Part shown: piece by piece, positions 40,737-45,677 of the stretch
Layout: every line of letters begins with the position of its first letter
Position numbering within the stretch: position 1 is the first letter of the stretch
Assembly: GCF_000737705.1 (NCBI RefSeq)
Contig: NZ_JPRH01000001.1
Location: forward strand, 620,001 to 684,000
Source of the DNA: Chryseobacterium soli
GTDB taxonomy: Bacteria; Bacteroidota; Bacteroidia; Flavobacteriales; Weeksellaceae
DNA: 64,000 bases
Direction: 5' to 3'
Notes under the pieces: model-generated
Seen by the model: only the letters and a program-made list of their open reading frames with translations
Database searches by the model: none
Told to the model about the DNA's origin: nothing
Made by a program: the position numbers and the translations under genes

Positions 40737-40748
40737 GATTTTCAACTG

Positions 40749-40822
40749 CTCCTCCTCTTGGGCTCGAACCAAGGACCCTCTGATTAACAGTCAGATGCTC
40801 TAACCAACTGAGCTAAGGAGGA
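40749..40822 (-). tRNA. tRNA-Asn (GTT), 3' half supplied by the element (attR)
   Basis: A 74-nt cloverleaf: acceptor TCCTCCT/AGGAGGA, D-arm GCTC/GAGC, anticodon arm TCTGA-CTGTTAA-TCAGA (anticodon GTT), T-arm CTTGG-TTCGAGC-CCAAG, discriminator G, CCA not encoded. It is identical to the tRNA at 45604 except in the T-stem and adjacent bases, which come from the integrated element; the core repeat is 40774-40790. Confidence 0.96.
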
Positions 40823-41722: not shown

Positions 41723-42796
41723 TTACATTCCATAATGATGCATTGCCTTCTCTTTTAATGGGTGCGTACTCCAATCTTCCCATTCTCCTGTATAGGGGCT
41801 ATAGCCACACTTTAAAGGTTTGGAAATGTCCAGTCCTTCATTATTGGTGTGGGAGCATTCAGTATAAGCCCGGCAATCTGTACAGATATATCTGAACTCA
41901 CAATCTTTACATATTTCAATATGATCTTTGGTCAGATTCCAGTATTGTTTAAAACCTTTTTTGTTGAATGCTTCTTCTAAATTTATTTCGTTTATATTTC
42001 CAAAACTTTGAGGCATGGATGGGCAATTTTTAATATTACCTTCAAAATCAATGGCTATTTTCTTATAAAGACAAGAGTTATGATGGTGTGCCTCTAAATA
42101 AAAACTATGGTTAAGATTAACATTTTTTAAATCAATGAGTCCGCAACTTAAAGGAATTTTAATTTCGTTTTTGATGATGGTCAGGTAGGTGGAACCCAAT
42201 GTCTGAAAATCTTCTGTAGGTTGTGAGTGTAGCGTTACATTAAGGAACTTATTTGAAATAGTATCATGAGTTTCTTTAATAAATGAAACCAATTGAGGGG
42301 TGTACTTGGCTATAATTGAAATTTCATGGATATTAGAGTTATTAAACGAATCTAATTTAGTAATAACTTTGATGATTTCGTGAAAATTTAATGTTTCTGA
42401 AAATCTGATTTGAAGATATTTAATCTTTAAAATACAAATATGTTGTATCAAAGTATCATTTAAAGTTTCAGAATTATTAATATCTAAAATTAAGTATTCA
42501 ACATTCGAGGGTGTTTCATTAAAGTGAGAGGAGGTCTTAAAGTTTAATAATTCTTTTTTGGTTTTTACTATATATCCTAAATTGTTGTCCAAAATAAAAT
42601 TAAGATATTCCTCTAACGTTTCCAAGCTATCCTGATCTAATTGTTTTTTCAATACTGAATAATTCTCTTGCTCATTGGAGAGTAAGTCGTAAAAAGCATT
42701 TGGAATTATGTGTAGGAACCCTGTATTAGTATCAAAAATAATAGATTTTTGGGCGCCTTTAGTAATTTTTACGGAATTAAATAATTTTAAAAACAT
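41723..42796 (-). CDS. gwsS: Grasp-with-spasm system SPASM-domain maturase
   Basis: 357 residues. The C-terminal SPASM domain has many Cys: 'SCGLIDL', 'NSCLYKKIAIDFEGNIKNCPSMP', 'ICKDCEFRYICTDCRAYTECS', 'KCGYSPYTGEW', which would bind auxiliary Fe-S clusters. No CxxxCxxC motif is found in the N-terminal half, so a normal radical-SAM cluster is absent, as reported for the SPASM partner of grasp-with-spasm systems. It should act with the ATP-grasp ligase on the precursor peptide. It starts 2 nt after the stop of the 54-aa gene, in a tight operon. Confidence 0.85.
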   Translation of the reverse strand: MFLKLFNSVKITKGAQKSIIFDTNTGFLHIIPNAFYDLLSNEQENYSVLKKQLDQDSLETLEEYLNFILDNNLGYIVKTKKELLNFKTSSHFNETPSNVEYLILDINNSETLNDTLIQHICILKIKYLQIRFSETLNFHEIIKVITKLDSFNNSNIHEISIIAKYTPQLVSFIKETHDTISNKFLNVTLHSQPTEDFQTLGSTYLTIIKNEIKIPLSCGLIDLKNVNLNHSFYLEAHHHNSCLYKKIAIDFEGNIKNCPSMPQSFGNINEINLEEAFNKKGFKQYWNLTKDHIEICKDCEFRYICTDCRAYTECSHTNNEGLDISKPLKCGYSPYTGEWEDWSTHPLKEKAMHHYGM

Positions 42797-42798
42797 CT

Positions 42799-42963
42799 TT
42801 AATATAAAAGTGAATAATGTTTTGTTGAACGTGAAATCTTAGTTCTATTGCTTTTTTTGTCTTTATTTTCAGAATATTTAACCTGAGAGAGGTTGTTGCT
42901 TTTTTTCCATTCCTGTAATGAAAATTCAAGTCCTTTTAAATGTAATGCTTCCTGGTTTTTCAT
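42799..42963 (-). CDS. 54-aa basic protein between gwsG and gwsS, unrecognised
   Basis: ATG 42963 overlaps the gwsG TGA as ATGA, and the TAA (42799) is 2 nt before the gwsS ATG, so this frame is embedded in the operon. The protein starts 'MKNQEALHLKGLEFSLQEWK', followed by a Lys/Ser/Asn-rich stretch ending 'STKHYSLLY'. The first 20 residues resemble an amphipathic helix. There is no leader Gly-Gly site, no Cys. It may be a second precursor, a leader-binding partner or a folding aid; I do not recognise it. Confidence 0.6.
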   Translation of the reverse strand: MKNQEALHLKGLEFSLQEWKKSNNLSQVKYSENKDKKSNRTKISRSTKHYSLLY

Positions 42964-43886
42964 AATAAATCTGCAATATATTTTTCTATCTGGTAGTTTC
43001 CGTAATAGCTAACCTGGTGAAATTGTCCTAAGGGATTTATCTCTAAAAAATAATAATCATCATCAGATTGTATTAAATCTATAGTGCCACACCTTAAATT
43101 CAATGTTTTTGCCATTTTGTGGATTTTTCTTTGTATCTCAATGGGAAGCTTACAGGAAAGATATTTTTTATCCCTGTCTTTTAAGTTTCTAATATCAATA
43201 TTATCTGAAAAATCAAATGTGGCAATTGCCCAAATCCGTTTTTCAAAGAAAAACACTCTTATTTCGTATGCCTTATTGATTTTATTCTGAATAAGTGAAG
43301 GGATAATGTTTTCTTTTTTTGACTGAAGCTGATTGAAATCTATTTCACGGGTGTAATTTAAGTACAACTCATTTTCAATAAAGATGGGCTTCATTTCGGA
43401 GACGGACTTGGTGATATAGTTCTGGGAACAATCAATCTTTGTAAGATCTTTTAATTGGGATACAATATAAGTTTCGGGTATTTTTAAGCCTAAAGATTTT
43501 GCTAAAAATAAAACTTCCAGTTTATTGACTTCTTTGGTGAAAAGGTTTCCAAATATATTCGCATCATTTATTTTTAGATAATAACAAATAAATTCTGTTA
43601 CTGATTTAATTTCTGAATTATAGAATTCAATAAGATTGCTATCAATTTCTTGGTTCGCTATGTTGTAATAGATTCCGCCATTTCTATAAAAGACTGATTT
43701 AAAATCATTCAGATTGTATTCAATATTATTGATGGAAATTTTATACATATTCTTACTGAAGTCAAAAAATACCTTAGTAATATGTTGATTTTCATTAAGT
43801 CTGACAAAACTTTTATTTTGATAGGATAACCATGTGCAGATCTCATCAGTCATAGTGTCGTTATCAACACTAATGAGGAGTATCAT
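42960..43886 (-). CDS. gwsG: Grasp-with-spasm system ATP-grasp peptide ligase
   Basis: 308 residues of the ATP-grasp ligase fold. The N-terminal Rossmann-like part begins 'MILLISVDNDTMTDEICTWLS'; ATP and Mg sites lie in the C-terminal half: 'NYITKSVSEMKPIF', 'PSLIQNKINKAYEIRVFFF', 'CGTIDLIQSDDDYYFLEINPLGQF'. The glutamate/asparagine pair of 'FLEINP' binds Mg-ATP. Such enzymes make side-chain ester or amide links in graspetides. It overlaps the upstream 347-aa gene by 17 nt and the downstream 54-aa gene by ATGA. Confidence 0.88.
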   Translation of the reverse strand: MILLISVDNDTMTDEICTWLSYQNKSFVRLNENQHITKVFFDFSKNMYKISINNIEYNLNDFKSVFYRNGGIYYNIANQEIDSNLIEFYNSEIKSVTEFICYYLKINDANIFGNLFTKEVNKLEVLFLAKSLGLKIPETYIVSQLKDLTKIDCSQNYITKSVSEMKPIFIENELYLNYTREIDFNQLQSKKENIIPSLIQNKINKAYEIRVFFFEKRIWAIATFDFSDNIDIRNLKDRDKKYLSCKLPIEIQRKIHKMAKTLNLRCGTIDLIQSDDDYYFLEINPLGQFHQVSYYGNYQIEKYIADLL

Positions 43887-44913
43887 CTAGCTTAATTAAG
43901 TTGACTTTATATCTTTCGATCTCATTTTCATCTACAAAATTCAAGCCTTCTGTCGTTCTGCTTAAAAAAATATAATCTTTATTTTTTAATAAGAATATGT
44001 TTTTATTTAATTCATCTTCTGAAGATGGGAGTCCAATTTTTTTTCTTTTTTCATTTACATAATCAACCATCTTTTTTATTTTATCCGTTCTTTTTTCAGG
44101 TGTAAAAAAACTTGAGATATAGCAGCAATCACTTTCTCCATTATTTTTTATAAATTGATAAATAGTAAAAAATGAATAATCTTTTGTACCATTATTTAAA
44201 TCCAATAAAAAGCCTGCGATATCGGGTCTAATTTTCCCATCGTTTAAAGCTTTTACTATTTCCTTAGAAAAGTTGACCCTTTGAGGACTATACCTATTCG
44301 TGGCTAGCTGATGCCAAATAATAAAATAAAAATCGTGAAAAAAAACTTTGCTCTTAGATTCTAAACCGATATTATATTCATTAGGAAATCCTTTTTTTTG
44401 TATAAGTTTAAGTAACTTCGTTGAAGTAATACTATCATTTTTAGTAAGTTCATTTTGGTATTTTGTGTAATTCCCTCCAGATAATTTTCTATAATACTGG
44501 TCAAGAATAAATAAAGAATCTAAACTTTTTTTATAGCTATAATCCAATTTATTTTTACATTTTATTTCACCATATTTCTTATTGTTTGGAAAGTTTTCTG
44601 ACTGAAAGTTATCTTTGAATTTATAGTCTAAGCATTTTAAAGAAGAATATTGTTGATATGCATTGTCCGAATCTTTTACTTTTAAAGAAACCACCATACT
44701 GTTATATAAATCTTTAGCGTGAGGTTTTTTAAATTTTTTAAATGCTTTTGCATATAAGGCATTAGCATCTAGTAATTTATTTTCTAGAATATCCTTTTCT
44801 GCATTATTAACAAATTCATAATAAGCAATAAGTTTTTCATTTTTTAATTCAATTGTTTGAGCATTGGAGTGGAAGCTAAAAATTAAAGCTAGGCCTATTA
44901 AAATTTGTTTCAT
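43870..44913 (-). CDS. Secreted protein of the grasp-with-spasm operon, unknown function
   Basis: 347 residues with a signal peptide 'MKQILIGLALIFSFHSNAQ'. The mature part starts with a helical, TPR-like segment ('YYEFVNNAEKDILENKLLDANALYAKAFKKF', written here only in part as pattern) and has a Cys pair in 'ESDCCYISSFF'. It lies between the precursor gene and gwsG and overlaps gwsG by 17 nt. A role as an envelope partner or processing factor of the peptide is inferred from position only. Confidence 0.7.
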   Translation of the reverse strand: MKQILIGLALIFSFHSNAQTIELKNEKLIAYYEFVNNAEKDILENKLLDANALYAKAFKKFKKPHAKDLYNSMVVSLKVKDSDNAYQQYSSLKCLDYKFKDNFQSENFPNNKKYGEIKCKNKLDYSYKKSLDSLFILDQYYRKLSGGNYTKYQNELTKNDSITSTKLLKLIQKKGFPNEYNIGLESKSKVFFHDFYFIIWHQLATNRYSPQRVNFSKEIVKALNDGKIRPDIAGFLLDLNNGTKDYSFFTIYQFIKNNGESDCCYISSFFTPEKRTDKIKKMVDYVNEKRKKIGLPSSEDELNKNIFLLKNKDYIFLSRTTEGLNFVDENEIERYKVNLIKLDDTPH

Positions 44914-44963: not shown

Positions 44964-45218
44964 TTAATTGTTTACAGGCTTATCTACTACTGTAACGCCA
45001 TTGTAACCCATTCCGCCATTGCCGAAATCAAGGTCACTAGTAAATGCGTGACATTCGTATCCTTTTGGGCCTAAGAATTCATATTCCCCACCTCCTGTAG
45101 TAACAGGATCAATAGCTAGGAAAGATTTTACAGGTGCACCCTGTCCTCCTAAAATAACATCTAACTTCTTATTTTGAAGCTGGAAATTTTCTAATTTTTC
45201 TAATGTTTTTGTTTTCAT
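44964..45218 (-). CDS. gwsA: Grasp-with-spasm precursor peptide
   Basis: 84 residues from ATG 45218 ('MKTKTLEKLENFQLQNKKLD'), the usual leader of natural-product precursors in this phylum, with a double-glycine site in 'DVILGGQGAPV' (~24-25). The core is rich in Gly and in Asp/Glu/Thr/Ser/Lys, the residue types that an ATP-grasp ligase links: 'AIDPVTTGGGEYEFLGPKGY' then one Cys in 'ECHAFTS', then 'DLDFGNGGMGYNGV'. It is first in the operon; the promoter is just upstream. The upstream in-frame start at 45260 is less likely. Confidence 0.88.
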   Translation of the reverse strand: MKTKTLEKLENFQLQNKKLDVILGGQGAPVKSFLAIDPVTTGGGEYEFLGPKGYECHAFTSDLDFGNGGMGYNGVTVVDKPVNN

Positions 45219-45593: not shown

Positions 45594-45603
45594 GAAGCTT
45601 TCG

Positions 45604-45677
45604 CTCCTCCTGCTGGGCTCGAACCAGCGACCCTCTGATTAACAGTCAGATGCTCTAACCAACTGAGCTAAGGAGGA
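45604..45677 (-). tRNA. tRNA-Asn (GTT)
   Basis: A 74-nt cloverleaf with acceptor TCCTCCT/AGGAGGA, anticodon loop CTGTTAA, T-arm GCTGG-TTCGAGC-CCAGC, discriminator G and no encoded CCA. Its 3' half matches the 42-nt fragment left at attL (29653-29694), so it represents the unaltered host sequence. Confidence 0.97.

Follow-up and report, generated by a model that had tools for sequence, protein, structure and literature searches.

A small gene for a 54-aa protein has been identified on the minus strand of the window (the whole 64,000-nucleotide stretch of Chryseobacterium soli contig NZ_JPRH01000001.1 that was analysed), in the slot between the genes for the ATP-grasp peptide ligase GwsG and the SPASM-domain protein GwsS of a grasp-with-spasm cluster. 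Comparison of its homologues shows it to be a true protein-coding gene, and its product is very probably an accessory of the maturation machinery. With modest confidence, we consider it best explained as a short, basic ligase accessory of the grasp-with-spasm (graspetide) machinery; the choice of GwsG as its partner is likewise made on balance. The three genes concerned are as follows.

42799..42963, minus strand: the 54-aa small gene in the GwsG-GwsS slot (homologues, purifying selection)
42960..43886, minus strand: gwsG, ATP-grasp peptide ligase (TIGR04192)
41723..42796, minus strand: gwsS, SPASM-domain peptide maturase (TIGR04193 and a model of the homologue from locus L006)

As the original prediction had stated, the frame is locked between its neighbours: its start lies within the gwsG stop (ATGA, a 4-nt overlap at 42,960-42,963), and its own stop is separated by 2 nt from the gwsS ATG at 42,796. 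The minus strand is the coding one; read on the plus strand, 42,799-42,963 has many stops. Length alone is no proof, since 11 kb here contain 46 frames of 40 aa or more, and the frame is taken as a gene because it is conserved, not because of its length. Among the 40 loci first compared using tblastn, it is present in seven, L001-L007, all from close Chryseobacterium relatives (54-76% identity), always between gwsG and gwsS and with the 4-nt overlap kept in all seven. Searching 173 genomes of the genus placed it at 17 sites in 16 genomes, some of these being strains identical to those of L001-L007; GwsS adjoins it at all 17 and GwsG at 16, the exception being L052. The copies in L006 and L048 differ at 11 nucleotides, 10 of them at third codon positions, with no amino acid change (nonsynonymous rate dN 0, synonymous rate dS 0.55), and the median dN/dS of the gene is 0.30 (58 usable of 105 pairs); these substitution patterns show that its codons are under purifying selection. 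That the frame might be no gene at all, just a chance frame or a translational spacer, would fit its shortness and the many chance frames of an AT-rich region; a conserved protein with third-position bias and homologues in every close locus contradicts this, and we give it almost no credence. The earlier suggestion that the frame is maintained as part of the operon, and hence is a probable maturation accessory, is thus well supported by conservation, by the filled slots described below and by purifying selection.

The proteins of the 54-aa family are 51-54 aa long and conserved at both ends. Their median net charge is +8, so the product is basic as predicted, and the predicted lack of a Gly-Gly site extends to all 14 distinct members; freedom from cysteine holds for the window copy but not for the family, since 10 of the 14 have one or two Cys. 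No matches to the protein were found in NCBIfam, Pfam or PHROGs, nor to the gene in plasmid records.

An equivalent frame in related clusters, which the original prediction had named as its own test, was found throughout. Genus, class, order and phylum searches, together with a locus search and fetched stretches, gave 218 sequences, window included, with 172 distinct GwsG rows, 171 of them followed by GwsS. Seven rows were left out: L098, where an LPL-type slot frame is visible but broken (the LPL family is described below), and six GwsG fragments, one of which, L004, does carry the 54-aa gene. (In L004/L043, from Chryseobacterium soldanellicola DSM 17072, gwsG is frameshifted near residue 270, through either assembly error or decay, while the small gene and gwsS are intact.) An open reading frame (ORF) of 43-87 aa occupies the slot in all 165 usable rows, encoding 160 distinct proteins; as a broken gene in several pieces, or a locus included twice, sometimes accounts for more than one of the 172 rows, the 165 are slots and not independent events. 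The slots were chosen automatically and not all inspected by hand, and in at least one, L181, the wrong frame was taken, a fitting one with LPP and FYKS being visible. Every usable related cluster examined is thereby shown to hold a small ORF at this position. It overlaps gwsG in 133 of the 165 slots, by 4 nt in 71. A regular expression finds h-P-h (h, hydrophobic) near the N-terminus of 107 of the 160 proteins and a strict C-terminal motif in 46, the C-terminal end reading by eye as K-x-[I/Y]-S-x-hydrophobic; the resulting two-ended picture, in which a variable middle separates an N-terminal motif from the C-terminal end, is thus drawn partly by eye. Four other slot proteins had nothing above cut-off in NCBIfam or Pfam, and a scan of the surveyed rows for long extensions revealed no natural case in which the small protein is fused to GwsG or to GwsS.

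This slot has been described before. A survey, PMC8939145 (Biol Direct 2022), reports 116 proteins there, in graspetide "branch 5" loci, as the LPL family, the commonest of the slot proteins, and "unrelated small proteins" at the same position where no LPL protein was identified. Like LPL, the 54-aa gene lies between an ATP-grasp ligase gene and a TIGR04193 SPASM gene, and its products are similarly small and lack the GG motif. Unlike LPL, none of the 14 aligned members has the Leu-Pro-Leu motif, so the family has not been filed with LPL; it is one of that paper's second sort, the non-LPL small proteins, and may already figure in its supplement.

BLAST linkage was used to sort the slot proteins into families, and leave-one-family-out profiles were then tested against 3234 decoy ORFs. 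Families 0, 2, 3, 4 and 5 were recovered with an area under the curve (AUC) of 0.999, family 6 with 0.93 and family 7 with 0.99. The 29 proteins from singletons and small families gave 0.91, and 18 of them exceeded the 99th percentile of the decoys. Most non-LPL slot proteins thus match each other and LPL at the profile level, which is new relative to PMC8939145, and the term "unrelated" used there is too strong for most of them. The signal of the 54-aa family is one of the weakest, with an AUC of 0.93 against decoys and 0.795 against its own shuffles; only two of its 14 members passed the 99th percentile of the decoys, at a best E of 0.03 with the leave-one-family-out hidden Markov model. Aligned by hhalign with all other slot proteins, it matches end to end over 53 columns (P 0.0027, probability 11%); none of 100 column shuffles and none of 41 decoy families scored as high, and the reversed family scored 11.6 where the real one had 16.5. 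With the LPL-bearing family as the only target, 2 of 100 shuffles did reach the score of the real family. In a quick, midpoint-rooted tree of 140 ligase rows, the 15 ligases of the family group together as a single clade (support 100), whose long stem arises among ligases with other slot families, at a point where the tool warns of long branches meeting. Common descent with the other slot proteins is likely on this evidence, the 54-aa family being a divergent lineage of a slot already in print.

A read-through of the small protein into GwsS was modelled with AlphaFold from the L006 homologue. GwsS is mostly modelled at a pLDDT (predicted local distance difference test) above 90 and the small part below 50. 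In the modelled GwsS, residues 1-79 resemble the structure of the RRE TbiB1 with its leader (5v1v, root-mean-square deviation 3.0, 79 of 88 aligned) at Z 7.9, which lies in the tool's range for a possibly common arrangement (Z under 8) and to that extent counts against our reading. The next fold matches are the RRE parts of TruD and MccB, also RRE-bearing enzymes. The rest of the model has a radical-SAM/SPASM fold (PqqE 6c8v, Z 10.8, root-mean-square deviation 5.4, 196 aligned). GwsS as modelled thus has an RRE-like N-terminal domain of its own. The CX3CX2C motif is absent from the window GwsS and from all 122 full-length homologues, so GwsS is probably not a functional radical SAM enzyme. Searched by sequence, solved structures gave nothing clearly related to it, the best hit being to an unrelated-looking protein (E 0.017).

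The original prediction had offered the small protein as a possible leader-binding partner. This is not supported, the modelled GwsS already having an RRE-like domain and the small protein having no confident fold (no family match, pLDDT below 50); it is probably disordered, judging from the models, and its low-confidence model leaves a winged-helix RRE fold possible.

PqqD, the peptide chaperone of PqqA and PqqE, is a folded RRE. The small protein resembles it in being encoded beside a SPASM maturase; it differs in having no confident fold, with the RRE-like domain lying in GwsS. A role of this kind, as a precursor chaperone for the SPASM protein, is what PMC8939145 suggests for LPL, with contact to the ligase left possible, and it fits the statement there that LPL genes are always directly upstream of the SPASM gene as well as the 2-nt distance in the window. 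The RRE-like domain of GwsS weakens the published analogy, since the place of PqqD seems to be filled inside GwsS itself; the lack of a confident fold and the 15 of 165 slots in which "always directly upstream" fails also speak against it, and we regard the chaperone as somewhat improbable.

Those 15 slots bear directly on the choice of partner. In them gwsS is more than 90 nt downstream of the small gene (more than 500 nt in nine), and the small gene overlaps gwsG or lies within 30 nt of it; they represent 13 places, L058 and L020 being one locus, and L108 and L016 another. In the three that were inspected, L016, L020 and L039, another frame starts between the small gene and gwsS. The reverse, a small gene more than 90 nt from gwsG, is seen in only two of the 165 (107 and 132 nt). 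Partial correlation of protein distances likewise gives higher values with GwsG than with GwsS, 0.53 vs 0.27 over 35 LPL loci and 0.63 vs 0.14 over 14 loci of the 54-aa family, with bootstrap 5% bounds of the difference at 0.015 and 0.031, respectively. Gene order and distance correlations therefore lean to the ligase side. A link between ligase and SPASM protein, the other role that the original prediction had offered, may be possible, though fusion models show confident docking to neither of the two.

Several observations weigh against this choice. Linkage confounds the distance correlations, whose lower bounds are scarcely above zero. In the window, 2 nt separate the small gene from gwsS, and in 150 of the 165 slots the distance from the end of the small gene to the gwsS match is no more than 90 nt, which suits a GwsS partner equally. 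No confident docking was seen in AlphaFold models of the L006 small protein fused to GwsS (small part at a pLDDT below 50) or of the L016 LPL relative fused to GwsG (pLDDT about 33-53, a weak hairpin), these models being limited by short linkers, few rows and contacts unreadable without coordinates. Finally, at L177/L052 in genome G114, no gwsG was found, L177 being the longer of the two stretches, and only residues 19-54 of the small protein are still encoded, while gwsS is full length (70% identity); this is a decayed cluster keeping its SPASM protein, and a single deletion may account for both the loss of gwsG and the truncation.

A different way for the small protein to act on GwsG would be as a detached leader, carrying the ligase-activating motif of other graspetide leaders and priming the ligase in trans. 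The pattern P-h-xxx-aromatic-h-acid, picked after LPL had been seen, occurs in 28% of the 160 slot proteins as against 1% of decoy ORFs. Among the 104 slot proteins outside both LPL proper and the 54-aa family, its share is 10%; it is absent from all 14 members of the 54-aa family, and the GwsG-LPL fusion model gave no confident docking. A profile of 28 chryseoviridin-type leaders showed no preference for slot proteins over shuffles (AUC 0.42 for family 0 and 0.46 for the 54-aa family), and mimicry of chryseoviridin leaders was rejected on this negative profile. For LPL, activation in trans through a leader-like motif is an attractive idea; for the 54-aa family it is unsupported, and as a general account we think it improbable.

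The small protein could also be a second or decayed precursor modified by GwsG and GwsS, being small, inside the cluster and, by eye, like the cluster leaders at its N-terminus (F-x-L-[EQ]..K). Leader profiles do place it above decoy ORFs (AUC 0.74-0.85); against its own shuffles, the AUC falls to 0.54-0.62, so that composition explains most of the likeness. Mimicry of the cluster's own leaders was also rejected, profiles of 10, 90 and 100 leaders scoring the small protein scarcely above its own shuffles. With no GG site, conservation at both ends unlike a variable core, and a separate GG precursor in the cluster, a precursor role is very improbable.

That precursor and a further operon gene lie upstream of gwsG.

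43870..44913, minus strand: 347-aa protein with an N-terminus that looks signal-like by eye (17-nt overlap with gwsG)
44964..45218, minus strand: gwsA-type precursor peptide, with a leader ending in Gly-Gly, followed by a core containing Thr, Ser, Asp and Glu

The precursor has tblastn counterparts in L001-L007. The 347-aa protein, also kept adjoining gwsG in those seven loci, is probably exported; it has no Pfam or NCBIfam family above cut-off. Some further gws loci (L010, L027 and L038) have weak tblastn matches to it, and a guess from these is that it may be akin to the uncharacterised "cluster 23" proteins of PMC8939145. The window gwsG scores 222.1 bits against TIGR04192 (E 1.1e-65), slightly below the curated cut-off of 230; at more than 210 bits, its kinship to these ligases is scarcely in doubt even so. 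Its closest solved structures by sequence are CdnC 7mgv (E 5e-13), then 7m4s, 5ig9 and 5ig8. The window gwsS scores 295 bits against TIGR04193 (cut-off 175).

Two tRNA-Asn genes flank the whole cluster, at 40,748-40,822 and 45,603-45,677, both on the minus strand and inside an 89-nt repeat (91%). Within the few kb covered per locus, tRNAs were seen in three of 19 other loci scanned, all of different kinds (Ser, Pro and Arg in L003, two Phe in L199, Ser in L201), and none in the other 16. The cluster may be mobile between tRNA sites. The source genome has two further GwsG-GwsS pairs (L178, at G000:C6:16001-36000, and L088 and L089), each with a slot protein from another family.

The favoured reading, a ligase accessory, can be put as a sequence of steps. 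The small protein would be made by translation coupled to gwsG and would work with GwsG, not in place of PqqD; GwsS would use its own RRE-like domain to hold the precursor's GG-leader, and the small protein, not itself a precursor, would bind GwsG and either activate it or keep it beside GwsS, so that the precursor core is cross-linked. This activation or tether step is put forward tentatively, as possible and no more. A partner co-encoded with a graspetide ligase is known in MirC, according to PMC13097080 (ACS Chem Biol 2026): the rosaritide synthetase MirB gave no product in co-expression without it. By analogy, the small protein is perhaps required for ligase activity as MirC is for MirB. 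MirC differs in being much larger, at more than 300 residues, with a SurA-like C-domain and a weakly RRE-like N-domain. A far broader proposal, which we hold rather doubtful, is that the slot proteins form one superfamily of tiny, disordered, two-ended proteins, each being an obligate subunit of a grasp-with-spasm ligase and also taking the place, in trans, of the leader's activating motif; leader recognition (by the RRE of GwsS) and ligase activation (by the small protein) would then be split, allowing one ligase to serve very diverse precursors.

The slot itself is already in print in PMC8939145; what is new is the wider family relation and the evidence on the partner, neither of which was found in print in our literature searches (judged by listings and abstract openings). 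The same searches brought up no other paper treating the slot relation and no apparent reconstituted grasp-with-spasm cluster. TIGR04192 matches occur in 132 of 148 Chryseobacterium genomes, 92 of them above cut-off, the weaker ones probably being other graspetide ligases. Cloning only the annotated genes of a cluster might leave out the small gene, and if the ligase needs the small protein, heterologous expression without it would fail. The guess on the LPL family published in PMC8939145 thereby becomes directly testable.
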